Source: a virus. Taken from it: a DNA stretch of 46,992 nt. Shown here in pieces: positions 23,792 through 42,816 of the stretch. Each line of letters begins with the position of its first letter. The stretch's first letter is position 1. The position numbers were made by a program, and so were the translations under genes. The notes beneath the pieces are model-generated. The model did not search any database. It saw nothing but the letters and a program-made list of their open reading frames with translations, and was not told where the DNA came from. The stretch is taken from the IMG/VR virus record IMGVR_UViG_3300009610_000039, positions 1 through 46,992 of that record; one strand, 5' to 3'.

Positions 23792-24204
23792 TTGAGATCG
23801 CGTTGGATGAACAAGAGAAGGACTCGAAGGGCGTCCCGCTGATGTCGAGGCTTTGCGGGAGGCAGCTCTATACGCAGCTTCTTCAACTTTTTGTCGGGCC
23901 ACACTGACTTGCTTGCGCTTGAGCCGATCACGGTAAGCTTCGTACCACTCTTCATCTGAGTCCATTGCTTGCATACCCCAATATATTCGACGCTGGTTAA
24001 TAGTGCTGCTGGGTTGTTGCGATTCTCAAAGTTCTCTACAACTACGTGGCGAGGCCCCACGACATCGAGGAACTGTTTCAATACATCGTGGTGAGGTCCT
24101 GGACCGAACTCGCGCCACCAGATGCTGCCCATTGTATACCACGCGACTCCGGTAGTCTCGCCCGGATCTATAGCGACAATAGGTGTATGTATCGGATCGA
24201 TCAT
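23734..24204 (-). CDS. RuvC-like RNase H-fold nuclease (Holliday junction resolvase type)
   Basis: 156 residues, ATG six bases after GAGG. The RNase H fold acidic residues are visible: Asp13 in AIDPGETTGVAW, Glu57 in HVVVENF, Asp124 in RHQRDALRVLLL. Proteins of this size in phages resolve branched DNA before packaging. The last 58 bases overlap the WhiB-like gene. Part of composite element B lies just upstream, so this gene may be under its control. Confidence 0.8.
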   Translation of the reverse strand: MIDPIHTPIVAIDPGETTGVAWYTMGSIWWREFGPGPHHDVLKQFLDVVGPRHVVVENFENRNNPAALLTSVEYIGVCKQWTQMKSGTKLTVIGSSASKSVWPDKKLKKLRIELPPAKPRHQRDALRVLLLFIQRDLKCMDFVKLATAPGAQRPHA

Positions 24205-24246
24205 CTCTATCCTCGAGTCTGTAAGTAGCCTTTATCTTGTGCTTAG

Positions 24247-24302
24247 AGAGCGCGATGTCACTTGTTAGACTCGCGTAGACCATAGTCTATGTGCCTCTAT
24301 AA
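24247..24302 (+). promoter_or_regulatory. Composite palindromic element, copy B
   Basis: AGAGCGC (24247-24253), ten variable bases, then a 39-base block (24264-24302) opening with GTTAGACTCGCGTAGAC and closing GTCTATGTGCCTCTATAA around a 4-base centre. The block matches copy A (39697-39735, opposite strand) at 33 of 39 positions with no gap, and AGAGCGC stands at the same distance. TAGAC half-sites are spaced one helical turn apart. Within it TAGACC-N16-TATAAC could act as a rightward promoter. Most of the 105-base gap between the neighbouring genes is this element. Confidence 0.75.
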
Positions 24303-24309
24303 CGCGTGC

Positions 24310-24684
24310 TCATAAGTAAATCGCTGATAGACCGTGGGCCAAACGAAGGTCGTTTAAGAGACCGTGAATATCATTCAAGGCGCCTTGTGTGTCCGGAGCC
24401 TCTTCGACGAAGAGGGCCATGCGATCACGAAGTGAATCATACCGCTTGTCGTATGTCTGACTCACTCGCATCTGCTTGATAACCACTTTTAGGTTACTGC
24501 AGTTGAGATTCGTTCGGTCACCGTCGACGAAGATGACCCGTTCGTTTTCTTCTAGCGGTCGGCCTAATGCTACTTCGGCAACCAGATGATGCTTGAAGCG
24601 CCACCCTGTGGAGGTCTTGACGCATGTATAGCCGTTCTGGTTGACAGTCTCATCGCCGATATCAGCCCGCTTACCCTTACTCAT
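24310..24684 (-). CDS. HNH-fold protein lacking a normal catalytic centre
   Basis: 124 residues, start overlapping the polymerase stop (ATGA). The phage HNH pattern is clear: HHLVAEVALGRPLEENERV then DGDRTNLNCSNLKVV. The position that should read HH (general-base His) is IF here (residues 51-52). The fold can bind DNA, but nicking activity is doubtful. The C-terminal 55 residues are helical. It may be a decayed homing endonuclease beside the polymerase gene, a common target. Confidence 0.65.
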   Translation of the reverse strand: MSKGKRADIGDETVNQNGYTCVKTSTGWRFKHHLVAEVALGRPLEENERVIFVDGDRTNLNCSNLKVVIKQMRVSQTYDKRYDSLRDRMALFVEEAPDTQGALNDIHGLLNDLRLAHGLSAIYL

Positions 24685-26984
24685 GCTAAGCTTCCCCAGT
24701 CGTTTCCTATTTGTACATCAACGAAGAATGGTATCTTGTCCGAGTATTCCTCGGCAGCTGTCAGTTCCATTTCCTTAGCGATGACTTCTCCTATTTCTTT
24801 CGCCTCATCAGGTAATGCTTGTACAAGTATAGAGTCATGAACTAGAATGCGGATGTCGAAGCCGTACTTCTCCCAGACTCTTGCTGCGGCTCGGTAACAG
24901 ATCTCATTGGCAGTTGATTGTGGGAAGAATGCATACAGTTGCCTTTCAACATCGTTGGCATTCTCTCTGGTGATCAGGTGGAAGTGCCTAGTCCGTCCGA
25001 AGTGGGTAATGGGATCCCAACCATCTTCGAAGACGCGTCGCTTGAGTTCCGCCTTCCAAGCGATAACGTCAGGCATCATGTTTGTAAAGCCATCCTGGAT
25101 AATAGCTGCAGCAGCAACAGTGATGCCGTATTCGTCAGCAATCGATTGAGGTTCGCGTCCATACGAGGTTCCGAATACCACTGCCTTAGTACGGACTCGC
25201 TCCACTTCCTTTCGCCAGTTTCCAGGACCATAGACAACGTCACTAACTTCGTTGTGGATGTCTCGTGAAGAATCTGAAAGGACAGGAATAAGGTAGCTGC
25301 AATTAGCTTCGATTCCCATGACACGTAGTTCCGCCGTTCTATAGTCCGCCTGAACGTATACGTATTTGTCACTATCGGGTATCCAAGCTCGCCGAATCCT
25401 GTAACCTCGTGGTTGGTTATGGATATTAGGATTTCGGGAGGAAGCACGTCCTGTAGTCGTTCCGTGGAGCAAGATAGTGGTGTGAATACGGTCATGGTAA
25501 GCTCTTTTCAATAGGCCCTCTACATAAGTAGAGTGCAGCTTTTGAACGCCTCTGTACTTGAGTAGTGCAACGATAAAGTCCTTTATTGATTGCTTCATAC
25601 GCCTGTCGCGCATCAGCATGGTCAGATGAAGTTCGTCAGTAGATTGTGTTGGGTGACCTAGTTCAGCTAAGGCATTCTGAACTTGCAGCCAGCTTCTAGG
25701 GTTGTCGACATACTTGGATGTGACTTCCATGTACTCAGCCATTTCGATCTTGAGCTCTTCACCTAGCTGGACTAAGTACTCTGGGTCGATACGAGATCCG
25801 GCCATCTCAGTATGCATGAACATCATAGAGACGCGACACATCCAATCGTGGAGTTCACGTTCCTTGGGTGTCAAGTGTTCACAGTAGTACTTGTATAGCA
25901 GCCAGGTGTTCCAGATGTCATAGGCATTGTATCTGTAGAGGATGTCGCGAGGAATGTCTGCATAGTTCTTATTCTCTCCAAGGTACTGTTCGAGTTCCTT
26001 CTTCCAAGCAGGACTGCCAAGGATCTCGACTGCGTTGTACTCTAGAGAGTTTGTTCCACGTCGCTCGTCTGTTATATGAGAGGCCAACATTGTGTCGAAG
26101 TACAAGATTCCAAAGATGTTTAAGGCAGTCAAGCCTGCTAGGTCGAACTTTCCATTGTGACAAATGGGCTTGTGCCATTCGATGAACATCTTAAGTGCAT
26201 CGTTGGCAAAGGTACTTTGAAGGGCATTCTCGCCTATGACTACTACTTCGTTTGCCAGTACAATCCCTACACACAAGAACTGATAGCGTTCAGGGTGTTC
26301 GAAGTCGACGTCCTTCTCGATGCCTACTTCGATATCAATCACCACAGGTTGAGGCGACCAGGGCTCAGTATGGCCGCGGAGCCAATCTTCTGCTTCGTCT
26401 GGATCGTCTAGCACTAAGAAGTCTGGAGCTTTCCATTGTGAAGGTAGCTCATACACCTTGCGGAGGTCACGAGACATTGATGGGAAGAAGTCGCCTTGAC
26501 GAAGACATGCGGCTGGATGAAATGTCGGTATAACCTTCCAGCCATTCATCTCTCTGGGTGGACCGATACGAGCTTGGGTGATCTTCTCGAGTCCGGTGAT
26601 GGCACGAGTCGCAGTGTTGCCTAGAGTCACTACTGTCTCGATAGGAAGCGAAGCGAGATCTGCCATGAGTGCGGGCTTGCATCGAGTAATGGCTTCGTTC
26701 GGAAGTGTCTTCTGAGGCTGACATTGTACTGTGTTCAGCTCTGAAACGTTTGCCATATCGATTCCCTCCTGTCTAGCCGCGCTGTGGAGGAGACGACCGC
26801 TTGGGCCGACAAATGGTAGGCCGCCTTTAGCTTCCATAGCGCCCGGAGCTTCCCCGATGAAAGCTATGGTAGCTGTTGGGTTAAGATTGTTCGGGACATG
26901 CTTCCTCTTGTAAAGAGGGCAGCCTTCACAATCAGCTTGCGGGTGCTTCCGCCCAGCGAAGGAGGGTGCCTGCGTTTCGGTCAC
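24681..26984 (-). CDS. Uracil-DNA glycosylase/DNA polymerase I fusion
   Basis: 767 residues, GTG seven bases after GAGG. Residues 1 to about 185 are a UDG family-4-like domain: CEGCPLY, GEAPGAMEAKGGLPFVGPSG and TFHPAACLR. Residues about 210-390 form a 3'-5' exonuclease (DIEVG, CHNGKFDLAGL, RYNAYDIWN). The rest is a family A polymerase: motif A ADYRTAELR (Asp547), motif B with Arg596, Lys600, Phe604 and Tyr608 in exact spacing, motif C HDS at 716-718 where HDE is usual. It is the phage replicase. The 53-base overlap with the DpdA-like gene ties it to base modification. Confidence 0.9.
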   Translation of the reverse strand: MTETQAPSFAGRKHPQADCEGCPLYKRKHVPNNLNPTATIAFIGEAPGAMEAKGGLPFVGPSGRLLHSAARQEGIDMANVSELNTVQCQPQKTLPNEAITRCKPALMADLASLPIETVVTLGNTATRAITGLEKITQARIGPPREMNGWKVIPTFHPAACLRQGDFFPSMSRDLRKVYELPSQWKAPDFLVLDDPDEAEDWLRGHTEPWSPQPVVIDIEVGIEKDVDFEHPERYQFLCVGIVLANEVVVIGENALQSTFANDALKMFIEWHKPICHNGKFDLAGLTALNIFGILYFDTMLASHITDERRGTNSLEYNAVEILGSPAWKKELEQYLGENKNYADIPRDILYRYNAYDIWNTWLLYKYYCEHLTPKERELHDWMCRVSMMFMHTEMAGSRIDPEYLVQLGEELKIEMAEYMEVTSKYVDNPRSWLQVQNALAELGHPTQSTDELHLTMLMRDRRMKQSIKDFIVALLKYRGVQKLHSTYVEGLLKRAYHDRIHTTILLHGTTTGRASSRNPNIHNQPRGYRIRRAWIPDSDKYVYVQADYRTAELRVMGIEANCSYLIPVLSDSSRDIHNEVSDVVYGPGNWRKEVERVRTKAVVFGTSYGREPQSIADEYGITVAAAAIIQDGFTNMMPDVIAWKAELKRRVFEDGWDPITHFGRTRHFHLITRENANDVERQLYAFFPQSTANEICYRAAARVWEKYGFDIRILVHDSILVQALPDEAKEIGEVIAKEMELTAAEEYSDKIPFFVDVQIGNDWGSLA

Positions 26985-27693
26985 TGATGTACCTCTGATT
27001 CTTATTCAGGTCGTAATGAAAGTAGTTATCAGGTCGTTCAATCTGTTTGTTCAGTATACTTGTAATGTACCTCTCCTGGATTCCGTACACCCAAGGCAAA
27101 CTTGTATCCATCGATCGAACGTTAGGCAGCCATTTCAAGTTTCGGGCTTCAGACGGGTATTGGTACAAGCTGCCAAGACAATGGATTGGTTTGGGATACG
27201 TATCGTTCCTAGCAAGAGCTTCACACATCCGAAGACGACTTTGTCTGCCGAAGAGAATGTTCATAACTCGAGGCAAGCCAATCACGTCAACGTATGGTAG
27301 TTCGGTATACAAGTTGATACATGACATAACTTCTGCAAGGGTCATACCTTGAGCTACTGCCATGAACTTAACACCGTTCTGTTCTTTCAGTTCTAACAAA
27401 GGTTCTAGGTTGCCTACTTGAAGAACGAAGTCACGAGTCGTTGCACAGTCTGTCAACTTATCGGGCAAGACAAGTTCATCAATCTCAGGCCAATCTCGAA
27501 CGAGTGTGTGCAATTGATTCAGCCCAATACTTTGACCCTCTGCAGCTCCATTGTCAAGAATGGTGTAGGTCTTCAGAGCCTGCTGGACGAAATCTAGAGG
27601 CAGGTCCACTAGCTGCCATGGAAGCATCAGGTTGATTGTCCCCTGAAGGATTGAGGCGTGCGACGAGTTCGGCGGGATCAATGCCAACTGCAT
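26932..27693 (-). CDS. dpdA: DpdA-like DNA 7-deazaguanine transglycosylase
   Basis: 253 residues behind AGAAAGG. A TGT-like TIM barrel can be read strand by strand: ILDNGAAEG with Asp47 (general acid/base position), ELVLPDKLTD, FMAVAQGMTL, YVDVIGLPRV, IHCLGS and RSMDTSLPWVYG with Asp196 at the nucleophile position. It lacks the tRNA-binding zinc site of true TGTs, as phage DpdA proteins do. It would exchange guanine in DNA for preQ0. Four preQ0-synthesis genes accompany it in the window. Confidence 0.75.
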   Translation of the reverse strand: MQLALIPPNSSHASILQGTINLMLPWQLVDLPLDFVQQALKTYTILDNGAAEGQSIGLNQLHTLVRDWPEIDELVLPDKLTDCATTRDFVLQVGNLEPLLELKEQNGVKFMAVAQGMTLAEVMSCINLYTELPYVDVIGLPRVMNILFGRQSRLRMCEALARNDTYPKPIHCLGSLYQYPSEARNLKWLPNVRSMDTSLPWVYGIQERYITSILNKQIERPDNYFHYDLNKNQRYISDRNAGTLLRWAEAPAS

Positions 27694-27826
27694 GAAGAAA
27701 CCTTTCTGCGGCCATATAGACCCTACCTACAAAGACTACTTGGGCTGTCGCCATTTGAAGAATGGCTTGTTGTTGGTCCTCAGAGAGCAAGCAGGGCGAG
27801 GAACTCTGCTCTGGCGAGTCGTTCAT
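27554..27826 (-). CDS. Possible small overlapping gene
   Basis: A 90-residue frame that bridges the 86-base gap between the FolE-like and DpdA-like genes. It overlaps the first by 47 and the second by 140 bases. The part in the gap is a plausible amphipathic helix pair (DQQQAILQMATAQVVFVGRV, then AAERFLHAVGIDPAELV). The tail inside the next gene is Ser/Asp/Gly-rich. The ribosome site is poor. The gap could instead be an untranslated leader carrying the DpdA ribosome site. Confidence 0.35.
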   Translation of the reverse strand: MNDSPEQSSSPCLLSEDQQQAILQMATAQVVFVGRVYMAAERFLHAVGIDPAELVARLNPSGDNQPDASMAASGPASRFRPAGSEDLHHS

Positions 27827-28343
27827 GGTCGGCGAAACATCCTTTCATTGCTGACGTAGTTGTAGTTGCCATACGTTCTTTGATACCACGTACCTTCATA
27901 CACGTATGGATTGTATCAGGCATTACTACTGCTACACCAATCGGATCAAGAACCTCTTCAAGGAAGTTAGCAATCCTCTGGGTGAGTCCTTCTTGTGTCC
28001 AAGTTCCCTTTGAGAGGTAGTGAACCAGTCGAGGGATCTTACTGAGCCCGACAATCGTCCCATTAGGAACATATGCTACGTGCACTCTACCGAAGAACGG
28101 AAGGAGGTGATGAGCACACAGCGAAGCGAACTCGATGTCCTTTACCAAGACAAGTTCGTCATGCCCTGGATTCTTAAAGGTGGTGAACTCGAATGGCATT
28201 CCCTTTCCATCATTGGACATCTCTTCCATCATCTTGCACCAGCGCATGGCAGTGTTCACCATATCTTGACTATGCCAGTCTTCATTGGGCATGAGTTCTT
28301 GAAGGACGTTCAGCGCATGCCTTTTGATCATGTCAGACGCCAC
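27780..28343 (-). CDS. folE: GTP cyclohydrolase I
   Basis: 187 residues, GTG six bases after GGGGAG. Zinc ligands are present: Cys76 and His79 in SLCAHHLLPFFG, and Cys148 in IHTCMKVRG. The following KERMATTTTSAMKGCF is the family signature. It converts GTP to 7,8-dihydroneopterin triphosphate, the first step of preQ0 synthesis. It sits between QueE and DpdA, so it serves base modification and not folate supply. Confidence 0.95.
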   Translation of the reverse strand: MASDMIKRHALNVLQELMPNEDWHSQDMVNTAMRWCKMMEEMSNDGKGMPFEFTTFKNPGHDELVLVKDIEFASLCAHHLLPFFGRVHVAYVPNGTIVGLSKIPRLVHYLSKGTWTQEGLTQRIANFLEEVLDPIGVAVVMPDTIHTCMKVRGIKERMATTTTSAMKGCFADHERLARAEFLALLAL

Positions 28344-29031
28344 GTTGTTCTCCCCAGATATGCTTATGAAGTTGAACGTTCAATACCCATGGTAACCTAT
28401 TCTCTAGTACATAGTCGACAATGGTTTTGTCATCGATCTTGGACCAAGCTGCTCCGACATATGGCGTCGCGCGGACAAAGTACCATTCCTTCCACAGGCC
28501 GTGCGCTTCAGCCAGGTCTTCAGGTGACGCGACTACGAACTTGACACAATCTTGGGTACGTAGTTGCCGAAGATTGATATGTCGATTGGCAAGCTTCGTC
28601 TTGGCCTCACCGCTACCTTCGAGCTTCCAATCCATAATGATAGTGACTTCTGGCGAGCGCATCAGCCATTCAGGATAGATGAACGAACCATTACTAAAGA
28701 TGTCAATCAGGAGTTCGGCTCTGTCGAGTTTTGAGATTAGTGCCCGCAAGGTATCGTTGTCTTGCATCAGAGGCTCTCCGCCTGTCAAGCAGATTCGCAT
28801 GGCTCCTGTTCGGTAGCGCTCGGCAATGATTTGATCCGCTAAGGCGTCCGGGTCGAGCTTTGGATCGTCCTTCCAGAGCGCGGGCATTATAGCATGCGGA
28901 GTATCGCAAGGCCAACCAGGGCAGCGCATGTTGCAGCCGCTAAACCTAACAAACTGCGTCGACTCACCAACATGAGGCCCTTCGCCTTGAATGCTTGTGT
29001 AGTGTTCATTGAGTCTCAGTTGCAGAGACAT
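28333..29031 (-). CDS. queE: 7-carboxy-7-deazaguanine synthase (radical SAM)
   Basis: 232 residues, ATG behind AAAGGA. The N-terminus YTSIQGEGPHVGESTQFVRF is the QueE signature. The cluster motif is Cys33, Cys37, Cys42 (CNMRCPGWPC; C-x3-C-x4-C, two residues longer than the canonical radical SAM spacing, a variant seen in some QueE proteins). LTGGEPLMQ is the SAM-binding GGE motif. It contracts carboxy-tetrahydropterin to 7-carboxy-7-deazaguanine, the substrate of QueC. It overlaps folE by 11 bases. Confidence 0.92.
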   Translation of the reverse strand: MSLQLRLNEHYTSIQGEGPHVGESTQFVRFSGCNMRCPGWPCDTPHAIMPALWKDDPKLDPDALADQIIAERYRTGAMRICLTGGEPLMQDNDTLRALISKLDRAELLIDIFSNGSFIYPEWLMRSPEVTIIMDWKLEGSGEAKTKLANRHINLRQLRTQDCVKFVVASPEDLAEAHGLWKEWYFVRATPYVGAAWSKIDDKTIVDYVLENRLPWVLNVQLHKHIWGEQRGV

Positions 29032-29242
29032 AGTTTCCTTTCAGGATGTATGGATGTAGTTCAATCCAACGAGCAGGTATACCGACGCCGCATGCACATA
29101 GATGACTTGTGCCAGGGTGGCTTCGGCGACCTGCATGATTGAGAGGCCATGCACATCCGTGGAACTCGCCAAAGAGTGTGCATGGGCCCTCCCAACCAAC
29201 GCATGGTTCAATTTCAGGTTCGTCTGTACAGTACACAAGCAA
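29006..29242 (-). CDS. Small Cys/His-rich protein
   Basis: 78 residues from a TTG at 29242, or 76 from the GTG two codons later, overlapping the genes on both sides by about 27 bases. Cysteines and histidines are arranged as zinc-ligand-like groups: YCTDEPEIEPCVGWEGPC, GEFHGCAWPL and HLCACG. Similar short ACG/CACG-type proteins are frequent in actinophage early regions. The neighbouring frame at 29041-29238 has no such pattern, so this one is preferred. Function unknown. Confidence 0.55.
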   Translation of the reverse strand: MLVYCTDEPEIEPCVGWEGPCTLFGEFHGCAWPLNHAGRRSHPGTSHLCACGVGIPARWIELHPYILKGNYVSATETQ

Positions 29243-29549
29243 TGATGGAGTATACGGCTCTGTCGATGTAGCCGTCGTTCGAACCAGCTGTCTTGACTGG
29301 ATCTACTGTGTGGTCTGGTTGACGTGCGAACCAGGCTCTAAGAGCGCCGCTATGCTTGGCCAGTAGAGCTTCGAGGTATCGGAGCGGTGTTGAGTTCGTA
29401 GCATAAGCACCAACTGTGAAGTTGTCGAGGGGGTCGTTATCGGAGCCATACTGCACACTCTTCTTCCTATGCATCTTTAGGATGTCGATAATAACAGCTT
29501 CGAACTCGTCATCAGGATTCAAGACTAACGGATTGTGATTGGTAACCAT
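29214..29549 (-). CDS. MazG/DUF1599-like helical protein
   Basis: 111 residues. AAAGGAG six bases before ATG 29549 fixes the start despite a 38-base overlap with the upstream gene. The RKKSVQYGSDNDPLDNF segment followed by helices and a final GYIDRAVYSIIACVLYR resembles the alpha-helical nucleotide pyrophosphohydrolase-like proteins (DUF1599, MazG-like) of phages, which use acidic residues to bind Mg-dNTP. In this context it could shape the nucleotide pool for modified-DNA synthesis (inference). Confidence 0.55.
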   Translation of the reverse strand: MVTNHNPLVLNPDDEFEAVIIDILKMHRKKSVQYGSDNDPLDNFTVGAYATNSTPLRYLEALLAKHSGALRAWFARQPDHTVDPVKTAGSNDGYIDRAVYSIIACVLYRRT

Positions 29550-29910
29550 TCAGGACTCCTTTGATATCAGGCAGCTCGAAGTTTGGACCCTTGAGAACCT
29601 TGCCGTCCTCACGTTTGATAGGAATACCATCTGGCGGCATCTTGGTCATATTGGATCGGTGGACCTCAGCAGTAACGGAAGGAAGATGAATGCCAAAGGC
29701 AACAGCTGCTCCGTTCACAACATAGTCGAGGTCACCAAGAGCATCGGCAACTTCAACCATATCTTCTGCGTCTAGGGCATCAGCTAGTTCACGTAGCTCT
29801 TCCCGAATCAAGGCGACTCGCAACGAGCGGTCTGAAGGGTTTGTGATGCCGATTCCGATGGCGCAGTTGAACTGCTGGTGGAATTGCATTACCATGTCGT
29901 AGGTGTTCAT
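29512..29910 (-). CDS. MazG-like nucleotide pyrophosphohydrolase
   Basis: 132 residues, start overlapping the queC stop (ATGA). The core is REELRELADALDAEDMVEV followed by DALGDLDYVVNGAA: the EExxE...ExxD acidic pattern of MazG/PRA-PH enzymes. Then VHRSNMTKMPPDG and GKVLKGPNF, a C-terminal form common in phage MazG-like proteins. It hydrolyses NTPs or dNTPs to monophosphates. Confidence 0.8.
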   Translation of the reverse strand: MNTYDMVMQFHQQFNCAIGIGITNPSDRSLRVALIREELRELADALDAEDMVEVADALGDLDYVVNGAAVAFGIHLPSVTAEVHRSNMTKMPPDGIPIKREDGKVLKGPNFELPDIKGVLNGYQSQSVSLES

Positions 29911-30620
29911 CCGCGGTATGCCTCAATCTCAAAGTTCGGATCTGCATACTCAGTGGGATCAATCACTTCACTGAGTCGGAAAGCTTCCTTGCGCTCCACG
30001 CATGTTCCACAACGGCCGCAATGGATCTGTCCGCCTTTGTAGCATGACCATGTCTTGCGATAGTCAACATCAATCTCGGCTCCCAGAGCTGCAATGTCGT
30101 GCTTGCCTCCTCCAAGGAAGGGAGCAATGACAGCATCAGTTGTCCACTCCATGAAGCCTTCGTTGGCCACGCGAGCTGTCTCGGCAACCTTCTGGATGAA
30201 GATCGGTCGGCAGTCAGGATAGATGAAGTGATCACCACTGTGCACGCCAGTCCAGACACCGTCTGCAGCTTCTAGAGTGACAGCATAACCAATGGCCATA
30301 GACAGCATGATCATGTTCCGATTGGGAACGACTGTCTGCTTCATCGATTCTTCCGCATAGTGTCCGTCAGGTACTTCGCGTTCATGATCAGTGAGTACGC
30401 TAGCCCCAAGCAGATCTTGCAGCACGCGAAGATCGACTGTCTTGTAGTCGATAAGGATTCCGTCTTCAACAAGCAACGAGGCATACGCCAACTCCTTTTG
30501 ATGGCGCTGTCCATAGTTGAACCCAATGCCATAGACCTCGGCTTGACCGAGGTTCTTTTTCATGTGGTGTGCCAGCGTAACGCTGTCCATTCCACCACTG
30601 ATGATTGCTACTGATGCCAT
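29907..30620 (-). CDS. queC: 7-cyano-7-deazaguanine (preQ0) synthase
   Basis: 237 residues. The PP-loop SGGMDS is at 8-13. GFNYGQRHQKEL and VVPNRNMIMLSMA are QueC signatures. Zinc-binding cysteines follow in TWSCYKGGQIHCGRCGTC. It uses ATP and ammonia to turn carboxy-deazaguanine into preQ0, the base that DpdA inserts. No glutamine amidotransferase domain is fused to it, unlike the Gat-QueC of some phages. Confidence 0.95.
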   Translation of the reverse strand: MASVAIISGGMDSVTLAHHMKKNLGQAEVYGIGFNYGQRHQKELAYASLLVEDGILIDYKTVDLRVLQDLLGASVLTDHEREVPDGHYAEESMKQTVVPNRNMIMLSMAIGYAVTLEAADGVWTGVHSGDHFIYPDCRPIFIQKVAETARVANEGFMEWTTDAVIAPFLGGGKHDIAALGAEIDVDYRKTWSCYKGGQIHCGRCGTCVERKEAFRLSEVIDPTEYADPNFEIEAYRG

Positions 30621-30629
30621 ACTGTCCTC

Positions 30630-32837: not shown

Positions 32838-32839
32838 GT

Positions 32840-32890
32840 GCCATGTCGGGACTTGAACCCTGTTTGATGTAGGCCTTACACCTTCATGGC
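32840..32890 (-). other. tRNA-like element without a D arm
   Basis: Read on the minus strand, GCCATG (from 32890) pairs with CATGGC (32845-32840), a 6-bp acceptor-like stem. Inside are a hairpin with stem GGTGT/ACATC and a 7-base loop, and a T-arm-like GGGTTCAAGTCCC (only three stem pairs). Total about 51 bases, against 73 or more for a tRNA; there is no D arm and no U33. It ends three bases before the primase-helicase start. Either a tRNA relic or a structured leader. Confidence 0.45.
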
Positions 32891-32897
32891 GCCTCTT

Positions 32898-32930
32898 GCT
32901 GCGTGGAAAGGAGCAAACAATACACGCAGC
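32898..32930 (-). other. Intercistronic hairpin with anti-Shine-Dalgarno-like loop
   Basis: An 8-bp perfect stem (GCTGCGTG/CACGCAGC) with a 17-base loop. On the transcribed minus strand the loop contains TTTGCTCCTTTC, the exact complement of the leader GAAAGGAGCAAA used before 35314 and 42795, and 11 of 12 bases of that before 41396. It starts 10 bases after the stop of the DUF669-like gene. There is no U tract, so it is not a standard terminator. Confidence 0.55.
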
Positions 32931-32939
32931 TAGAACTTA

Positions 32940-33404
32940 CTACGGCATGAAGCCGCTGCTAACCTTCTCTCCTCCTTCGCCACCGCCGCCCTTGAGGCCG
33001 GACTCGTCGAAGGACTTGATCTGGTTGATCTTGTTGCCAGCCTCGTATTCCTTGGTGGCCTTCTTGACGGCGACGACGAGGTTGACCTCGAGCTCGCCCT
33101 CCTGCTTGTCGAGCCAGTCCTCGATGTCCTCGTCTTTCCCGGGGCCAGTCGGCGCCGAGTCAACGAGCTGCTTCAAGACGAAGGGCGTGTACTCCGGTGG
33201 GAGCATCGCGTTCGTCCAGAGCTTCCGGTTCTCATAGGGACCGGACTGGATCGTGAACTCCAAGCTGTAGTAGTCCTTGTCAGGGTGCTTGGCGTTCTCA
33301 CTTGTCTGGCGGGTCTCCCAACCAGTGAGGAGTCCGTGGTATGTCCCGCGGGGAAGCGGATCGAAACCGCCACCTTGTACTCCATCAAAGTCGACAACAG
33401 GCAT
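32940..33404 (-). CDS. DUF669-like/ssDNA-binding protein
   Basis: 154 residues behind AAGGAG. PRGTYHGLLTGWETRQTSEN, then YYSLEFTIQSGPYENRKLW, is the OB-like pattern of phage DUF669 proteins, often encoded next to Sak4 ATPases and thought to bind single-stranded DNA. The end is Gly-rich, as in SSB tails. GC content is visibly higher than that of its neighbours, with host-like third positions, suggesting strong expression. Confidence 0.65.
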   Translation of the reverse strand: MPVVDFDGVQGGGFDPLPRGTYHGLLTGWETRQTSENAKHPDKDYYSLEFTIQSGPYENRKLWTNAMLPPEYTPFVLKQLVDSAPTGPGKDEDIEDWLDKQEGELEVNLVVAVKKATKEYEAGNKINQIKSFDESGLKGGGGEGGEKVSSGFMP

Positions 33405-33405
33405 C

Positions 33406-34215
33406 TTACTCTCCTTGAATCAGGGTGTGGATTTTGAACATTGTAGGATCCAGCATTACCTCTGGCATGCGTGAGGAACGATCCTTACACACAAACTCGT
33501 CCGTGCTGCTGGAGAGCACGAACCTATGGAGGGCTTCATCTGCGTCTTGGTCAAGCTCACCTGTCAGAGGATTCACCCTGACGTGCTTGGCATAGACGAA
33601 GAGAACAATGTCCATGAAGCCGGCGACTTCTTTCTTGAGCTTACCGGACAACATGGGGTTCTTTTTCATACGACCCTTCTTGTCTTCGCTCTCGTCCAAG
33701 AGCGCCGTGAAGACCGTATGCATGGGAAGATCGCGGAACCGACGAATAACTCGACGCATCTGCTCACCAAGCTTGCCCCATTCGCGAATGGAAGGGACAT
33801 CAGGATCTCGTTCCTCGTCCTCTTCGACAACAGCCTTCATGATGTCGCCCATGATCATTTTGTTGACTTCAGACAGGCTGTCAAGAACAAAGGTCTTGTA
33901 GCCGTGATCGGTTGTCAATAAGGTCTGGTACACTTGAACGAGTTCAGCCAGACTCTTGATGCGGACAACGTCGACGTTTGGATAGAAGGCCTTAAGCGAG
34001 AAGCTTCCACCTTCAACGTCGCCGATCAGTACAGGTGACATATCAGGTACATCGTCGGCACTTCCTGCTAGGACAGTTTTGCCTGCTCCAGGGTCTCCAT
34101 AGAGGAAGATGTTCATCCACGGAGGTGCTTGTCGAACTGATGTAAGAGTCAGCCCTCCAAAGCTACGTTCGGTTAACACAGATAGATCAGGCATTGGTTC
34201 TCGATTCTTTGACAA
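33406..34215 (-). CDS. RecA-fold ATPase, Sak4-like (AAA_24)
   Basis: 269 residues. Walker A GDPGAGKT at 40-47, Walker B YKTFVLDSLSEV, then MHTVFTALLDESEDKKG and a final domain that remains charged. This fits the phage nucleotide-binding Sak4 group, which promotes single-strand annealing with an SSB-like partner. It lies between the DUF669-like gene and the Cas4-like nuclease: a complete resection-annealing recombination set. It overlaps the nuclease gene by 29 bases. Confidence 0.8.
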   Translation of the reverse strand: MSKNREPMPDLSVLTERSFGGLTLTSVRQAPPWMNIFLYGDPGAGKTVLAGSADDVPDMSPVLIGDVEGGSFSLKAFYPNVDVVRIKSLAELVQVYQTLLTTDHGYKTFVLDSLSEVNKMIMGDIMKAVVEEDEERDPDVPSIREWGKLGEQMRRVIRRFRDLPMHTVFTALLDESEDKKGRMKKNPMLSGKLKKEVAGFMDIVLFVYAKHVRVNPLTGELDQDADEALHRFVLSSSTDEFVCKDRSSRMPEVMLDPTMFKIHTLIQGE

Positions 34216-35314
34216 AGGATTGGGTTAGGATCCACTCGTAGTCCTGACCTTCCATCTTTGCGAGGCAGGGAGCGGCTGTTGGACAGTTGTCACAAGCCCA
34301 TCGACCTGGATGAGGATAGATCCGAGGGTCGTTGATCATGTCTGCTGTCTCGTCTTTGATACGTTGGCGGATACCCATCAGCTCGTTAGTGTTCCGACTG
34401 ATCTCTGTACGCCGTACGTAGGTTGTTCCGAAGTCTTTCAGCCATTGTAGATGGTCTGCATACAACTCTACGTCCTCACCAGCTTCGGTGATGGTCTTCA
34501 AGTAGATGTCGTGGCTTGTGTATGCATTCTGACTAACACTAAACCGGCGTCCAAGTCGAATGACCTTGTTCTCATTAGGCGGTACAGGGTAACCTTTCAG
34601 GATCTCATTGTAGATAGCACCAGCAATACGAGTCCCAGTCATTAGGCTGTAACCCATAATGTAGGAGCCCATCTGTTCGTCCATCTCAAGGAAGCGCAGG
34701 TTGTCGGGCATGCGCGCTGTCGTCTTATGGTCAAGGATCCAGATGCGGCCTTCCTTGTCCTGGCACAACAGATCGATACGGCCTCGGAAGACTAATATAG
34801 TCCCAGCGGACTTTGGGCAGTACTCGAGTTGCTCTTCGTAGGTGTCATAGACCGGTACAACGAAATCATATTCAACACCGAGAGGTGTGATCCCGTAGTC
34901 AAGGTCACGCTTTTGTACCCACTCGAAGTAGTGGTATAACATACCTCGACCAAGGTCCATGTGCTCATCGAACTTTTCCTTCCAAGTATCGTCCAACACT
35001 TCCTGTTTGGTTACTCGGAGGTAACGCTTCTTGGTTTCATTCATGTGGTCCACGAACGCCTGGATAGCATTCATGATGACAGCTTCACGTTTAATACCAT
35101 CAGCTAAGACAAGAGACCACGTATCAGGGCAGTAGTAAACTTCCTCACCCTTATGAATGGCAGAACCAAAGAAGAACGGGGTAGGAGTCTCTTCAGGTTT
35201 CCAGCCTTGGCGCAGATCGCTCAGCCAGTTCCACCGCTCACGACATCCTTTGAACCCTTGAATGTCAGAGTTATGGATGTAAATAGGAGTTAGGCCTTCT
35301 GGGAAGTCGCCCAT
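34187..35314 (-). CDS. Cas4/RecB-like Fe-S exonuclease (PD-(D/E)XK)
   Basis: 375 residues from ATG 35314, six bases after AAAGGAGC; the longer frame to 35371 covers the promoter and is rejected. Motifs in order: Cys24 in FKGCRERW, GSAIHKGEE, VFRGRIDLL and WILDHKTTARM (catalytic Asp and Asp-x-Lys), QMGSYIMGY (QxxxY), and the C-terminal cluster CDNCPTAAPC. Four cysteines in this arrangement hold an Fe-S cluster in Cas4 and AddB nucleases. It resects DNA ends for the Sak4-like annealing protein. Confidence 0.85.
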   Translation of the reverse strand: MGDFPEGLTPIYIHNSDIQGFKGCRERWNWLSDLRQGWKPEETPTPFFFGSAIHKGEEVYYCPDTWSLVLADGIKREAVIMNAIQAFVDHMNETKKRYLRVTKQEVLDDTWKEKFDEHMDLGRGMLYHYFEWVQKRDLDYGITPLGVEYDFVVPVYDTYEEQLEYCPKSAGTILVFRGRIDLLCQDKEGRIWILDHKTTARMPDNLRFLEMDEQMGSYIMGYSLMTGTRIAGAIYNEILKGYPVPPNENKVIRLGRRFSVSQNAYTSHDIYLKTITEAGEDVELYADHLQWLKDFGTTYVRRTEISRNTNELMGIRQRIKDETADMINDPRIYPHPGRWACDNCPTAAPCLAKMEGQDYEWILTQSFVKESRTNA

Positions 35315-35338
35315 CCTTTGCTCCTTTCTTGTACTATT

Positions 35339-35396
35339 ATTATATAGTAAGTCAACTGTGAAAGTCAACACCAGTCGACTAACTTTTCCCTGGCAG
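35339..35396 (-). promoter_or_regulatory. Leftward promoter with upstream block, class 1
   Basis: On the minus strand TTGACT (35368-35363), 18 bases, TATAAT (35344-35339). TTGACT is repeated 7 bases further on. The block CTGCCAGGGAAAA (35396-35384) lies 15 bases upstream of the -35. The same 13 bases stand 14 bases upstream of the -35 of the promoter at 43432. It drives the nuclease-annealing-primase genes. Confidence 0.65.
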
Positions 35397-35405
35397 TATT
35401 GAGGA

Positions 35406-35495
35406 TTATCGCCTGGCTCGCTTGCTAAGAAGGATGACAGCGATTGCCAGAAGGATGATCGCCAGAAACTGGAACCACTCCCTGATCATCTCCAT
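35406..35495 (-). CDS. Tiny single-pass membrane peptide
   Basis: 29 residues from ATG 35495, or 27 from the ATG at 35489 that overlaps the upstream stop as ATGA. The middle (FLAIILLAIAVILL) is a clear membrane helix, followed by a basic KRARR end, predicting a cytoplasmic C-terminus. It is coupled to the secreted peptidoglycan hydrolase gene. Possible roles are holin-like helper or inhibitor; nothing more can be read from the sequence. Confidence 0.6.
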   Translation of the reverse strand: MEMIREWFQFLAIILLAIAVILLSKRARR

Positions 35496-36121
35496 GGGCT
35501 CATGCCTGACATGTCGTAGAGGACCTTAGCTCCACAGGCTTGTCGCTGCTTGTCTAGCGGTACGTCACTATTGAAATCTTGGTAGGAGTCGATGTCGCAG
35601 TCTTGACGTAAACGTGTAGCATAACCCGATCGGACATGGTTCTGATGTAGCTGCCAGTACCCGTGACAGCAGAAGGTCTTGACGCTATCTTCGTTTCTGC
35701 AGTTTGATTCACGCCAGCCCAAAGAGTCGAACACATCTGGTAGTCCTGCCTGTTGTCTATAGAACTTCATCTCTGCACAGTTATCTAGGCCGGCTGGTGC
35801 AAATGCTAGGCCATTCAATCCTGTAACTTGTGTGGCATTATTCTGTCGTACAGCCCCTCGTAGGGAGGCCAGAGTGACAGGTCCGGCTACACCATCGACT
35901 GATAATCCATTTGATTTCTGCCACGACTTCACTGCCTTCGTTGTTTGCGGACCATACTTGCCATCTACTGTGACCGTATACCCGAAAGCCTTTAGGCGCA
36001 TTTGAACTTCCGTGACCTCTGTCCCTGTGTCACCCGGTCCTGCTGCCTGGACTGCTTGGTAGGCTCCAATGACGAACCCTAAAGTGAACCCAATAATGGC
36101 AATCACCATGATGCGCTTCAT
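35486..36121 (-). CDS. Secreted peptidoglycan hydrolase with PG-binding domain
   Basis: 211 residues. The N-terminal MKRIMVIAIIGFTLGFVIGA is a signal peptide or signal-anchor, with an AxA-like site near residue 27. Residues about 30-92 are a peptidoglycan-binding_1 domain (VQMRLKAFGYTV, DGKYGPQTTKAVKSWQ, DGVAGPVTLASL). The C-terminal part has GWRESNCRNEDS with a Glu in the lysozyme/transglycosylase position and CCHGYWQLH. Six cysteines suggest disulfides outside the membrane. It is encoded among replication genes, not with the lysis cassette. Confidence 0.75.
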   Translation of the reverse strand: MKRIMVIAIIGFTLGFVIGAYQAVQAAGPGDTGTEVTEVQMRLKAFGYTVTVDGKYGPQTTKAVKSWQKSNGLSVDGVAGPVTLASLRGAVRQNNATQVTGLNGLAFAPAGLDNCAEMKFYRQQAGLPDVFDSLGWRESNCRNEDSVKTFCCHGYWQLHQNHVRSGYATRLRQDCDIDSYQDFNSDVPLDKQRQACGAKVLYDMSGMSPWR

Positions 36122-36591
36122 TGTGCTGTTCGCTTTAAGCTCAGTTCCGTCTGGAACGCTTGCATGTTGGACTTGGCTAGTCTGCGCAAGTCCTTCAGGT
36201 AGCCACGTACCATTTTAGGCACATGTCGATGAACACAGGGATCGGGCTGCTCTGCTAGATGCAGCAGGTACCGGTCAATGTCTGCGATGACATCTTGACA
36301 GGCCGCTATGTCCATCTGCAGCTTTGCAATCCGTTCCTGTCGTTGCTGACCTGCGTTGGGTGCTGGCTTGGCAGTACCATCTCGCAGTTCTGTCAACAGC
36401 TTGGGCAATGGCATGTCTAACTCGTTGGTCATGCTCTCCTCTTTCATGAAGCCCCAATTACCAGGGCAGTTACATTCGAAGCAGTTCCTAGGTTCACCAC
36501 AAACTTCGCAGCGCTCAAAGGCTATCGCAACAGTATGCCTATCAATACCCGTTATGCCTGTCGCTCTTGAGTGGCAGTCGTTACAGATCAT
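36118..36591 (-). CDS. Zinc-ribbon and coiled-coil protein
   Basis: 157 residues, start and stop both in ATGA overlaps. Residues 1-45 hold zinc-ligand pairs (MICNDCHSRATG, CEVCGEPRNCFECNC). The rest is helical with Gln/Arg/Leu-rich stretches (QQRQERIAKLQMDIAACQDV). A shorter product could start at Met49 or Met54 behind GAGAGG-like sites. Function unknown; the architecture suggests nucleic-acid or protein binding. Confidence 0.6.
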   Translation of the reverse strand: MICNDCHSRATGITGIDRHTVAIAFERCEVCGEPRNCFECNCPGNWGFMKEESMTNELDMPLPKLLTELRDGTAKPAPNAGQQRQERIAKLQMDIAACQDVIADIDRYLLHLAEQPDPCVHRHVPKMVRGYLKDLRRLAKSNMQAFQTELSLKRTAQ

Positions 36592-36809
36592 TCTACAATG
36601 CCCATCTTGATAAGGACATCTGTGAACTCTTTGGCGATGACAATGTTCTCTGGGTGGTTCTTAGTCCCACGCTTGACTTCCCAGTTAAGGAACAAGTTGG
36701 CGTGCAAACCATTTTCGATGTAATGTAGTACAGTAGCTTCGACCTCTTCACGTCTTAGCGGTCCAGACTCTACCCATGTAGTGCCGTTTATTCTATGCAT
36801 CAGTGCCAT
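36588..36809 (-). CDS. Hypothetical small protein
   Basis: 73 residues from ATG 36809, which has GAAGG upstream; a second Met three codons later is possible. The longer frame to 36920 lies within the DJ-1-like gene and is rejected. The sequence has a short strand (INGTTWVESGPLRREEV), a helix (EATVLHYIENGLHANLFL) and a basic turn. It overlaps the previous gene by 17 bases. No family recognised. Confidence 0.6.
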   Translation of the reverse strand: MALMHRINGTTWVESGPLRREEVEATVLHYIENGLHANLFLNWEVKRGTKNHPENIVIAKEFTDVLIKMGIVE

Positions 36810-37437
36810 TTTCGCGGGCCCTTCTTTCCTTGATCTGTTCAACAATGGCGATAGGCTTGCGCTCTCGTCCATGAGGAGTGAAGCCACTGTCAACCAATCC
36901 TGTGGTAACATCTTCCCCATTCAGTACTTTGACAAACATTTCTGCCCACATTGTAGTGGCCATTTGATTCTCGGCTGTAACAACTCGTCCATCGACTGAG
37001 ACAGTCAACGTAGAAAGATTAGCTCCACCTAGCCGAAGCTTTTGTCTGCTACGTACTAATGGGAAGAAGGACACTTGCACACCTTCAACAACCTGCCACA
37101 GGGAGGGCACGGAACAACAAATTGCTGCCAGTGGTTTCTTCTCGAAGTCAAAGGCCCTGACAAGTGCTTGTGCCTGCGGATCATCCCAATAAGCTTCGGT
37201 GTCCTTCATGTTGCCTGATACAATCATGAACGCATTGAACTCGTCGACAACCTTTTCGGGATCAACTGAGTCAAGCGTCCGCTCAAGAACATTGCGACGT
37301 CCGGTGAGCTCGTCAGCAACTTCTAGGTCAGTTGAGATGACTTCAAAGGTCTTCCCAGCGTCAGCCAAGACACCTAGTGCTGTCCAAAGCTCATGCCCGT
37401 TATATCTGCGGGCCACAAGTAATAGAACGTCCTTCAC
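36793..37437 (-). CDS. DJ-1/PfpI-superfamily protein
   Basis: 214 residues, GTG start in a GTGA overlap. The opening VLLLVARRYNGHELWTALGV...GKTFEVIST and the block FNAFMIVSGNMKDTEAY...PLAAICCSVPSLW are the DJ-1/PfpI fold, with the nucleophile-elbow Cys at 107 or 108. Family members are amidotransferase-like, deglycase or hydrolase enzymes. The C-terminus has a class-I-like TAENQMATTMWAEMFV segment in which the usual pattern is recognisable. A role in converting preQ0 in the modification pathway is conceivable but unproven. Confidence 0.7.
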   Translation of the reverse strand: MKDVLLLVARRYNGHELWTALGVLADAGKTFEVISTDLEVADELTGRRNVLERTLDSVDPEKVVDEFNAFMIVSGNMKDTEAYWDDPQAQALVRAFDFEKKPLAAICCSVPSLWQVVEGVQVSFFPLVRSRQKLRLGGANLSTLTVSVDGRVVTAENQMATTMWAEMFVKVLNGEDVTTGLVDSGFTPHGRERKPIAIVEQIKERRARENGTDA

Positions 37438-37805
37438 TTGGTGATCTGTCCTCTCTCGACAGCGGCACGCGACTGCACTTCATCTGGAGTAATGGGCATT
37501 GGCGGCAAGTCTGCCTCAGTCAGCTCGTGACCCTCGGTGCCTTTAGCATTCGGATCCTCGCGGATACGTGCCAAGTAGATTTCACCTTGGCGGCTAAAGA
37601 TTTCGACAGGCAGACTGTGCGATGAGATGTAGGCACGCAACGATGAGTACAGCCCTTGAAAGCTGTTCTGCATTCCAGTACGATCCACCATCACAAGGTC
37701 TTCATTGCTCTCCAGGAACATCTTCAAGATGGGATAGCTGACACGTCCTCGACGGCCTTCTCTCACATTGTTGATGCTGGCCGGATCTACCGGTACAAGT
37801 TTCAT
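37434..37805 (-). CDS. Hypothetical protein downstream of SNF2 helicase
   Basis: 123 residues from ATG 37805, in ATGA overlap with the helicase stop; the longer frame to 37844 is rejected. The core GRRGRVSYPILKMFLESNED...MQNSFQGLYSSLRAYISS looks like a small alpha-beta fold that ends in a strand (PVEIFSRQGEIYLARI), a form seen in small winged-helix-like phage proteins. The C-terminal 45 residues are Pro/Glu-rich and disordered. No function assigned. Confidence 0.6.
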   Translation of the reverse strand: MKLVPVDPASINNVREGRRGRVSYPILKMFLESNEDLVMVDRTGMQNSFQGLYSSLRAYISSHSLPVEIFSRQGEIYLARIREDPNAKGTEGHELTEADLPPMPITPDEVQSRAAVERGQITK

Positions 37806-39217
37806 TTCTTGTCGTCTCCTAACAGTTGCTTGATCCAACTCCACTTCATAGCGACTCTGTCCTTCTTGTCTGTTTCGATTGTTCCTTCCACATAGATGTC
37901 AATAACGTCTACGACATTTAACTGGCCCATACGATCAAGTCTGTCTTCTGCCTGATTGTTCTTTGCCGGTGACCAGTCTCTGGAAAGGAAGATAATGCAG
38001 GATGACTTGAATAAGTCAATACCCTCTCCGCCAGCTCCAATAGTTCCTAAGAAGACATCCACGTCTCCCCTCTGGAAAGACTCTACAGCCGTTACACGAT
38101 CTGTCTGTTTGACATCTCCAGTGACCTTTACGTAATCGATTTTGGACTTCTTCAGACGCTCTTCGAACAAGGTCAGTAGCTGTTTGAAGGCCGAATAGAT
38201 TACAACTGGTTGTCCTTCATCGAGTCGTTCTTGCATTAAGTCCCACGCAACATCACATTTGGGACTAGGCTCGCTCATGTGAACCTTGTCGTCCTTATCG
38301 ATGATGCAGTAGGCACATGCGAACTGTTGCTGTCGGACTAATCTAGAAATGACTGCGTTCGCTATAATGGGTGAGAGCTCGTCCTCATCGGTCGCGCCTT
38401 CCTCTTCCATCTTCGTATGAACCCAGGCGACCATCTCTTCAGTCATCTGCTTGTAAGCCGCCACTTGCAACTCTGACATCTGACACCAGTACTCCATAGG
38501 GTTCTTCTTGAGATGCGGAAGCACCTCTGACTTGAGTCGCCGAATGGTGTACATCGAAATGAGGTGTTGCAGTTCCTCTTCGTTCTGAGGTCCAACTACC
38601 TTCATGAACTTTTGATTGCCTCCATAAGAGGACAGCTCTTGTCTGGTATACCTCTTGCGGAAGTTCCAGTACGATCTCCACGAGCCAGGATACAGCCAGT
38701 TCAAGATACTCCAAAGGTCGTCCGGCATCCCTGTGGAAGGAGTGCCGCTAAGCCCCGTTTTGTACTGCGTAGGAACCTTCTTGATGGCCTTCGCAGCCTT
38801 GGTATCTTTGTTCTTGATACGGTGCACTTCGTCAGCAATGATGTGCAGCCATGGTTCCTTACTGAGATAGTCCACCAACATAATCTGGACGGCTTCCCAA
38901 TGCATGACTAGTACATCGGCATTCTCGTTCTTGAACTGCAGCCAAGATCGACCACGTGCTTTAGGGTCGAGCATGACTACCTTAAGATGAGGTTGCATCA
39001 TCTGAAAGTGCTTGTACCAACTATAAACGACAGCGCCAGCTGGACATACTACAAGCGTTTTCCCATTAGGGAAGTCTTGTCGTCGTACAGCATCAAGTGC
39101 AACTGCCATAACAGTCTTGCCTGTTCCCATCTCGTCAAAGATGGCGCAGTTAGGAATGTCAGGAGGCGCGAACTTGTTGACTGCTTCTATTTGGTAAGGG
39201 CGTAGTTCAATCGGCAT
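37802..39217 (-). CDS. SNF2-family DNA helicase/translocase
   Basis: 471 residues from ATG 39217 (MPIELRPYQ); the open frame to 39475 lies over the zinc-ribbon gene. Motif I is DEMGTGKT (28-35), motif II IIADEVHRIKN, motif III LSGTPSTG, motif V GEGIDLF and motif VI QAEDRLDRMGQ. An inserted Cys-containing stretch (FACAYCII) precedes the second RecA lobe. SNF2 proteins move along duplex DNA and are common in phage replication and recombination modules. Confidence 0.9.
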   Translation of the reverse strand: MPIELRPYQIEAVNKFAPPDIPNCAIFDEMGTGKTVMAVALDAVRRQDFPNGKTLVVCPAGAVVYSWYKHFQMMQPHLKVVMLDPKARGRSWLQFKNENADVLVMHWEAVQIMLVDYLSKEPWLHIIADEVHRIKNKDTKAAKAIKKVPTQYKTGLSGTPSTGMPDDLWSILNWLYPGSWRSYWNFRKRYTRQELSSYGGNQKFMKVVGPQNEEELQHLISMYTIRRLKSEVLPHLKKNPMEYWCQMSELQVAAYKQMTEEMVAWVHTKMEEEGATDEDELSPIIANAVISRLVRQQQFACAYCIIDKDDKVHMSEPSPKCDVAWDLMQERLDEGQPVVIYSAFKQLLTLFEERLKKSKIDYVKVTGDVKQTDRVTAVESFQRGDVDVFLGTIGAGGEGIDLFKSSCIIFLSRDWSPAKNNQAEDRLDRMGQLNVVDVIDIYVEGTIETDKKDRVAMKWSWIKQLLGDDKK

Positions 39218-39491
39218 GATGTCGTTCTTTAAGAACGTCCTCCCTGATAAGGTCTCCGCAGCGATTACACCAGGCTTCTCGAACCATGTCTCTGCTTTTG
39301 TCCAGCCAGTATGTCCATGTGATTTCCTTCCACGGAATGCGGTGATGGCAGCTCTTACATCGGACGCCAAGGTCTCTTCCGGCTTTGAGTTCGTCGAGAG
39401 AGACCTCTGCCTGTGTTCCGGCGAGTACGCCTTCCACCTTCCGCTTTCGTCGAAACGTCTTGTAGGTGTACTCATAGTCCGAAGAACTCAT
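39207..39491 (-). CDS. Zinc-ribbon protein
   Basis: 94 residues. Two CxxC pairs, CKSCHHRIPW and WCNRCGDLI, are 27 residues apart and separated by a Trp-rich strand (WTYWLDKSRD), giving a four-Cys zinc ribbon. The N-terminus is basic (TFRRKRKVEG). It overlaps both neighbours by 11-20 bases. The same DNA read in the helicase frame has no such pattern, which supports this frame. Probable nucleic-acid binding. Confidence 0.65.
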   Translation of the reverse strand: MSSSDYEYTYKTFRRKRKVEGVLAGTQAEVSLDELKAGRDLGVRCKSCHHRIPWKEITWTYWLDKSRDMVREAWCNRCGDLIREDVLKERHHAD

Positions 39492-39681
39492 CAGTCTTCT
39501 TTACGTCTATGACCTTGCGTCCACATCTGCAGAGTTCTACCTCAATGTGTTTGTTACGAATGTGATGGTAAATGTTCTGGGGAGTAAAGTGCCTCAGCCT
39601 GGCATATTCTCTAGGTGTGAGGAACCCTACTTCGGTCGCTTGATCCTCCAGATCGAAACGATCCAGGTCCTCCGGATCCAT
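39472..39681 (-). CDS. Small helix-turn-helix DNA-binding protein
   Basis: 69 residues behind GAAAGGAGC. The core LTPREYARLRHFTPQNIYHH then IRNKHIEVELCRCG is an excisionase/MerR-like helix-turn-helix with a wing. It is the first gene after composite element A, whose end lies 7 bases before the ribosome site, so autoregulation through the TAGAC sites is likely (inference). It could be the regulator acting on both copies of the element, or a recombination directionality factor, though no integrase is seen. Confidence 0.7.
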   Translation of the reverse strand: MDPEDLDRFDLEDQATEVGFLTPREYARLRHFTPQNIYHHIRNKHIEVELCRCGRKVIDVKKTDEFFGL

Positions 39682-39696
39682 TGATGCTCCTTTCGT

Positions 39697-39792
39697 TTAT
39701 AGACGCATATAGACCGTTGTCTATGCGAGTCTAACCGTTGCCCGAGCGCTCTGCGCGAGAGTAGTAACAGACGATGGTAGACTCGAATAGAC
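39697..39792 (-). promoter_or_regulatory. Composite palindromic element, copy A, with an extra half-site
   Basis: On the minus strand AGAGCGC (39752-39746), ten bases, then the 39-base block (39735-39697) with GTTAGACTCGCATAGAC and GTCTATATGCGTCTATAA. A separate half-site TAGACTCGAATAGAC lies at 39778-39792 in the opposite orientation, 44 bases from its inverted partner. TAGACA-N16-TATAAA inside the block is a plausible leftward promoter for the helix-turn-helix gene. This region is the 111-base gap between genes. Confidence 0.75.
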
Positions 39793-39882
39793 TTAGTCGT
39801 GTGGCATCAGGAAGCTAAGGATCAAGGCAATAAAGACAAGTGCGAGAAATACTACCAAGCACCACTTAAGAACCTCAATCAT
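39793..39882 (-). CDS. Tiny single-pass membrane peptide
   Basis: 29 residues, ATG in an ATGA overlap with the zinc-ribbon gene, with GGGAAG a few bases upstream. The core (LVVFLALVFIALILSF) is a strong membrane helix; the flanks are Glu/Lys at the N-terminus and His-Asp at the C-terminus. The stop touches the half-site of element A. Same size and layout as the peptide at 35406-35495, but the sequences are not clearly related. Confidence 0.6.
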   Translation of the reverse strand: MIEVLKWCLVVFLALVFIALILSFLMPHD

Positions 39883-42795: not shown

Positions 42796-42816
42796 ACTTT
42801 GCTCCTTTCACTAGCG

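Follow-up and report, generated by a model that had tools for sequence, protein, structure and literature searches.

The window analyzed here is the 46,992-nucleotide viral record IMGVR_UViG_3300009610_000039 of IMG/VR (positions 1 to 46,992), and it carries two inverted copies of a composite repeat element at the ends of a block of replication and modification genes. Copy 1 (24205-24301, plus strand) fills the gap between a gene for an HNH endonuclease (24310-24684, minus strand), whose 3' end adjoins it, and a RuvC-like gene (23734-24204, minus strand), whose start codon adjoins it on the other side. Copy 2 (39698-39792, minus strand) lies at the start of the replication operon, where its array of units ends, on the 3' side, 16 nt before the start codon belonging to the gene for a 69-aa predicted winged-helix protein of the HTH_17/BldC/Xis type (39472-39681, minus strand). 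This helix-turn-helix (HTH) gene heads a minus-strand run that continues with a DNA helicase (37802-39475), nucleases, a recombinase, a primase, QueC, MazG, QueE and GTP cyclohydrolase, and that extends to a family A DNA polymerase (24681-26984, minus strand) and the HNH gene, with copy 1 at the other end of the operon. The two copies are inverted relative to the direction of transcription. A first-pass annotation of this DNA had described a repeated element that brackets the replication and modification genes, and the copies do sit at both ends of that block.

Each copy consists of six short units spread over about 95 bp: two of them form a pair, and a spacer separates this pair from an array of the other four. 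The unit is a 7-mer, GTTAGAC or GTCTAAC (GTYWRAC), that is near its own reverse complement and is spaced at 10-11 bp. Copy 1 reads from pair to array along the plus strand: the pair, recognized by alignment with copy 2 and with the related locus L005, is made up of CTCTATC (24205-24211) and GTCTGTA (24217-24223), immediately 5' of the RuvC-like start codon (24204), and the array (24264-24301) is made up of GTTAGAC (24264-24270), CGTAGAC (24274-24280), GTCTATG (24285-24291) and CTCTATA (24295-24301). The array units of copy 2 are at 39698-39704, 39708-39714, 39719-39725 and 39729-39735, and the pair is at 39776-39782 and 39786-39792, with a weaker CAGAC at 39768-39772. Array centers are 10, 11 and 10 bp apart and the pair (24205-24223; 39776-39792) is 47 bp from the array in both copies. 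The copy 2 pair is just 3' of a small open reading frame for a likely membrane peptide (39795-39890, minus strand; MIEVLKWCLVVFLALVFIALILSFLMPHD), and short membrane-peptide reading frames also occur at the matching place in L005 and L020.

The first-pass annotation had delimited the element as 56 bases, at 24247-24302 (plus strand) and 39697-39752 (minus strand). Both copies are real, and these segments form the longest inverted pair in the window (56 nt, 77% complementary, 43/56, no indel), but the element is larger than was thought and its separate unit pair had been missed. A 39-base block with 33 identities, counted by eye, is indeed found between 24264-24302 and the reverse complement of 39697-39735. 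Throughout the record, AGAGCGC-N10-GTTAGACTCGC matches only the two copies, once per strand (24247-24274, plus; 39725-39752, minus), and in the window TAGAC-N4-GTCTA occurs without mismatch only at 24276-24289 and 39710-39723. Scored with a unit matrix trained without the lineage of the window, the two arrays reach 39.3 and 32.2, against 23.9 for the best of five dinucleotide-shuffled windows, and the earlier judgment that the matching is not due to chance is upheld. The half-sites had also been correctly placed one helical turn apart. As for the accompanying description as a palindrome of half-sites, four evenly spaced quasi-palindromic units fit better because the orientation of the units differs among relatives (>><<, <<>>, <<<< and >>>> all occur).

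Homologous phages that lose the blocks and keep the flanking genes had been named beforehand as the finding that would speak against the element. Most related IMG/VR contigs instead carry the composite at both places, inverted wherever orientation was checked (relatives are cited here by handles such as G001 and L005). One such comparison is with L005, which is 76% identical to the window in the helicase and 90% identical in the HTH protein. Alignment of L005 with both window copies identified the conserved parts as TTAGACTCRCRTAGACNNNNGTCTA and an upstream TCTAT-N-TCGAGTCTR; the latter is a second pair of the same units, located 52 bp upstream of TTAGACTCRCRTAGACNNNNGTCTA in the window and 51 bp upstream in L005. 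The AGAGCGC(-N10) part of the original description is common to the window copies only and is absent from L005 and from more distant relatives. A scan with TAGACTCNNNTAGACNNNNGTC found G001, a 54-kb IMG/VR contig with a polymerase about 40% identical to that of the window, and this contig has the composite at both syntenic places. G004 and G005 have their own versions at both places, once more inverted.

Two sets of loci were examined for arrays. The first contained 31 HTH-bearing loci, with the polymerase also present in 13 of 25 further contigs searched. A strict search for arrays of the 7-mer, allowing one mismatch, misses most copies, and a matrix scan trained with the tested lineage left out was used instead. 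Sixteen contigs have both loci; the top arrays fell at both in 12, at one only in G025, G023 and G030, and at neither in G016, with shuffled maxima far below the real scores. The second array of G015 is within the RuvC/HNH gap though past the 600-bp label. The second, independent set comprised 80 loci picked solely by polymerase homology, including 63 new ones with a recognizable RuvC. In 52 of these 63, the highest-scoring array anywhere in the locus was inside the RuvC/HNH gap, which makes up 6.3% of the bases (nominal binomial p 1.6e-51, which takes no account of kinship; the matrix had been trained on the earlier set, RuvC gaps among it, and near-identical contigs contributed a few of the loci). 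At scores of at least 25, 29 loci had an array in the gap and none had one elsewhere. Seven loci with neither an array nor an HNH gene provide natural negatives. Conservation of the HNH gene between polymerase and RuvC extends across the lineage, and almost every locus without it is also without the array; a functional link between the two is possible. In G023 and G024 the polymerase-HNH-RuvC block is split over the contig ends, a sign that the genomes may be circular or circularly permuted.

The arrays occupy gaps just 5' of gene starts, namely those of the HTH operon, of RuvC and sometimes of a tail-assembly chaperone. An additional array lies just upstream of a gene resembling a tail-assembly chaperone in G021, G028, G035, G038 and G039; G015 has an array before a tail gene, and G034 has five arrays. 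The HTH gene is found directly after one array, or a few genes past it, in the window, L005, G001, G012, G026, G015, G018, G025, G028 and others.

The geometry of the composite is likewise shared. Units are spaced 10.64 bp apart on average over 71 composites, and a free search from 35 to 75 bp placed the pair at 44-48 bp from the array in 22, at 56-59 bp in 46, at 36 bp in one and at 67 bp in two, with nothing between these classes and the two main classes about one helical turn apart. The periodicity is still strong when one composite per contig is taken (n=44, R=0.86). Such unit spacing and quantized distances are expected of a phased protein assembly. Unit orientation is more variable: >><< in 30 of the 71, <<>> in 13, <<<< in 13, >>>> in 5 and other arrangements in 10. 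Copies from the same genome resemble each other (mean likeness 0.61) more than copies from different genomes (0.40), and in 25 of 46 cases the nearest neighbor comes from the same genome, where about one such case would be expected. This likeness is expected of sites that co-evolve with one protein.

The candidate for that protein is the 69-aa product encoded beside copy 2, which models as a BldC/Xis-type winged helix. The AlphaFold model (predicted local distance difference test score 84.8, above 90 over residues 21-69) runs helix, HTH, beta wing, helix, and forms a lone winged helix. The top seven Foldseek matches are all BldC-DNA complexes (6ama, 6amk; probability 1.00), followed by the Xis protein of mycobacteriophage Pukovnik, and the best viral matches are excisionase-type HTH proteins. 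Pfam gave no hit for the window protein, and 2 of 26 homologs match PF12728 (HTH_17; best E 5e-4). The 26 homologs have PQxxYxxI and CxCGR in common and show no variation at the recognition-helix residues P34, Q35, Y38 and I41, which agrees with the unit being conserved. Extra weak HTH homologs are present in G044, G043, G042, G036 and G039, and such regulators may form a family with several members per phage. No tyrosine (PF00589) or serine (PF00239) recombinase was found in the window or in 21 relatives, in searches whose controls were positive. Neither an HTH homolog nor a closely related polymerase was detected in 84,980 prokaryote genomes; a first scan of bacterial genomes with an HTH pattern returned 272 pattern stretches and no relative.

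With moderate confidence, we favor the explanation that each copy is a multi-site operator for the phage's own small winged-helix protein, which would bind cooperatively, regulate its own synthesis and act at the starts of gene blocks. The first-pass annotation had listed an operator pair among its options and the 39472-39681 product as a possible binder, and this explanation has the best support. In this model, each 7-bp unit (GTYWRAC), of which there is one per helical turn, would take one monomer, and a second patch of two units would be kept at a fixed helical phase. The protein encoded beside one copy probably coats both elements and switches gene blocks on or off. At copy 2 it would control its own operon, from the helicase to the DNA polymerase and including the preQ0/7-deazaguanine genes; at copy 1 it would govern the RuvC-like gene found at the block's other end; and several relatives have a third copy shortly before the tail-assembly-chaperone gene. 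The product would in this way work as a timing switch that coordinates the starts of a few gene blocks, and autorepression is our guess as to the sign of control. Counted in favor of such an operator is the cultured Arthrobacter phage Anansi, which has the same polymerase-RuvC order and neither the HTH gene nor the arrays, a natural negative.

Several observations weigh against this model. A profile search recovered no HTH gene in G038, G040 or G041, all of which have arrays (G041 gave a marginal match), and the reverse, an HTH gene with no strong array, is seen in G016 and G045. No conserved sigma70 promoter, or -35/-10 pair at a fixed position, emerged from 68 composites. The mixed orientation of the units departs from the direct repeats bound by BldC, Apl and Xis, and a strictly head-to-tail oligomer would leave it unexplained, unless the quasi-symmetric unit can be read either way. 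Finally, the Foldseek E-values are weak (0.0085-0.014, with a template-modeling score of about 0.55). Weak E-values are usual for so short a domain. At the position of the HTH gene, G038 and G040 encode a different small protein that ends in a CxCG motif and that could be a replacement for it.

A pair of replication origins is an unlikely alternative in our estimation. The units would then be iterons for an initiator, with the inverted copies firing around the replication block; the arrays do flank the replication module in most relatives, the iteron-like units are phased on the helix, and a peak in cumulative GC skew is often seen near the RuvC/HNH junction. However, that peak falls where gene direction switches and is therefore confounded, there is no conspicuous AT-rich core, and the adjoining protein resembles regulators of transcription and excision. 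Furthermore, the phages have two to five copies, and the extra ones before tail genes favor control of gene-block transcription over origins. We find it improbable, too, that one protein bridges the inverted composites to fold or partition the replication block of about 15-20 kb. The fixed genetic positions of the inverted pair, the covariation of same-genome copies and the fixed helical phase of pair and array would all suit such an architectural site, but some phages have extra copies outside the block and the search of window proteins recognized no partition genes; as fragments, G026 and G012 are uninformative on this point.

About equally doubtful is the reading of the elements as promoters, whether recognized by the RNA polymerase of the host or by a sigma factor of the phage, with the repeats as promoter parts. 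The elements are 5' of gene starts, TTAGAC and TAGACT look like -35 and -10 hexamers, and the first-pass annotation had seen a promoter-like TAGACM-N16-TATAAM in each copy. This motif is not conserved: L005 has GATTGC in place of TATAAM, even though its units are kept and lie at exactly the same distance from the start codon. With this loss of TATAAA and the missing sigma70 signal, a promoter was rejected as the conserved function. Moreover, the maximum promoter score was 7.24 against 7.00 in block shuffles, the units themselves account for local peaks, their orientation is variable, and a simple promoter scan of the two window loci gave no sigma70-type promoter. G005 has a separate promoter-like direct repeat of 58 bp (TTGG...TATACT; L006 773-830 and 6526-6583), one copy of which is downstream of the composite and upstream of SWIM-HTH genes.

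Attachment-site arms bound by an excisionase or other recombination directionality factor would match the fold and array style of Xis, Apl and RdfS (PMC7498355, PMC11963761), but this very improbable reading is already largely refuted by the absence of PF00589 and PF00239 and of any sign of prophages in the searches above. Transposon ends, considered for the inverted pair, were rejected because the pair is syntenic at about 40% polymerase identity and no PF00239 or PF00589 protein was found. A prophage or att site was rejected on the absence of a recombinase from the window and 21 relatives and of a prophage relative from bacterial genomes. A striking spacer hairpin or cruciform in G002 and G018 does not extend to the composites in general (best palindrome 7.98 vs 7.57 shuffled; RNA fold z means -1.05 and -0.58).

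Elsewhere in the window, genes for GTP cyclohydrolase, QueE and QueC (27780-30620) together with QueD (44255-44707) suggest, from gene content, a 7-deazaguanine (preQ0-type) DNA modification. ARAGORN called a tRNA gene at 42816-42886 with an odd four-base anticodon (tcag), and no known RNA families were found in the window. There were no intrinsic terminators in the copy 2 region; two weak plus-strand terminator-like sites left of copy 1 were assigned to the gene-convergence region.

With these results, a curiosity of one genome becomes a putative regulatory element that extends across a lineage of uncultivated phages and can be tested. The helically quantized spacing yields a clear structural prediction, and the array is a DNA marker for finding more members of the lineage. 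If the protein does bind, it would be a filament-forming excisionase-type regulator that works without an integrase and on units facing either way. A broader and more tentative proposal, which we consider possible and rather doubtful, is that a widespread, apparently non-integrating siphophage lineage uses an integrase-free Xis/BldC-type protein as a global gene-block switch on phased six-unit composites, and that the inverted pair may also be a loop or origin pair that joins replication to transcription timing.

The first-pass annotation knew of no matching phage element, and no annotated element of this design has been found; INPHARED contained no nucleotide match to the module DNA and none to the HTH protein. 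Several known systems nonetheless offer parallels. In the extended start-associated sequences (ESAS) of cluster K mycobacteriophages, inverted-repeat elements likewise lie upstream of orthologous genes with a consensus that varies between genomes; their inverted repeats, 17 bp long and in pairs, adjoin a 13-bp start-associated sequence (SAS) and occur in many copies, and the passages that describe them propose no binder (PMC3203893). The SAS, GGGATAGGAGCCC, is not enriched in the window (10 matches at up to three mismatches vs 10.75 expected, none with fewer than three). Cluster O mycobacteriophages also have short palindromic repeats, of 17 bp, in the gaps of a siphophage genome (PMC4351075). 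Those number more than 30 single copies per genome, in contrast to the two to five composite arrays here. Cluster A stoperators are asymmetric repressor sites of 13-14 bp, about 25 or more of them scattered through the genome. The window, in contrast, has two composites, and relatives have two to five.

Further parallels are with proteins that bind phased repeats cooperatively. BldC forms cooperative head-to-tail oligomers on repeats (PMC5859096), and so do RdfS and Xis (PMC11963761). BldC, with its smeA-sffA and whiI operators in Streptomyces (PMC5859096), is the best structural match; it is a winged-helix-only protein of 68 aa (69 aa here), with multi-copy operators upstream of genes and repeats about one turn apart, a pattern with which the array spacing here is compatible. 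BldC sites, unlike the mixed-orientation GTYWRAC units and separate phased pair described here, are AT-rich direct repeats, AATTNNNN(C), and the two proteins are 14-16% identical in structural alignment. The small protein Apl of phage 186 binds cooperatively to repeats spaced by one turn, both in the early promoter region and at att (PMC7498355), and cooperative binding is predicted here as well. Apl differs in serving an integrase at the attachment site, on direct repeats; the present phages lack an integrase and have the RuvC/HNH gap as their second locus. Cox of P2 and Xis of lambda are of the same kind as Apl, serving an integrase at the attachment site on direct repeats. These Xis/Cox/Apl systems have arrays of sites at intervals of one helical turn, in the early promoter region and at a second locus, and that feature recurs here. 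The element probably works like the arrays of Apl, Cox and BldC, and it stands outside the excisionase-attachment kind because the integrase is missing.

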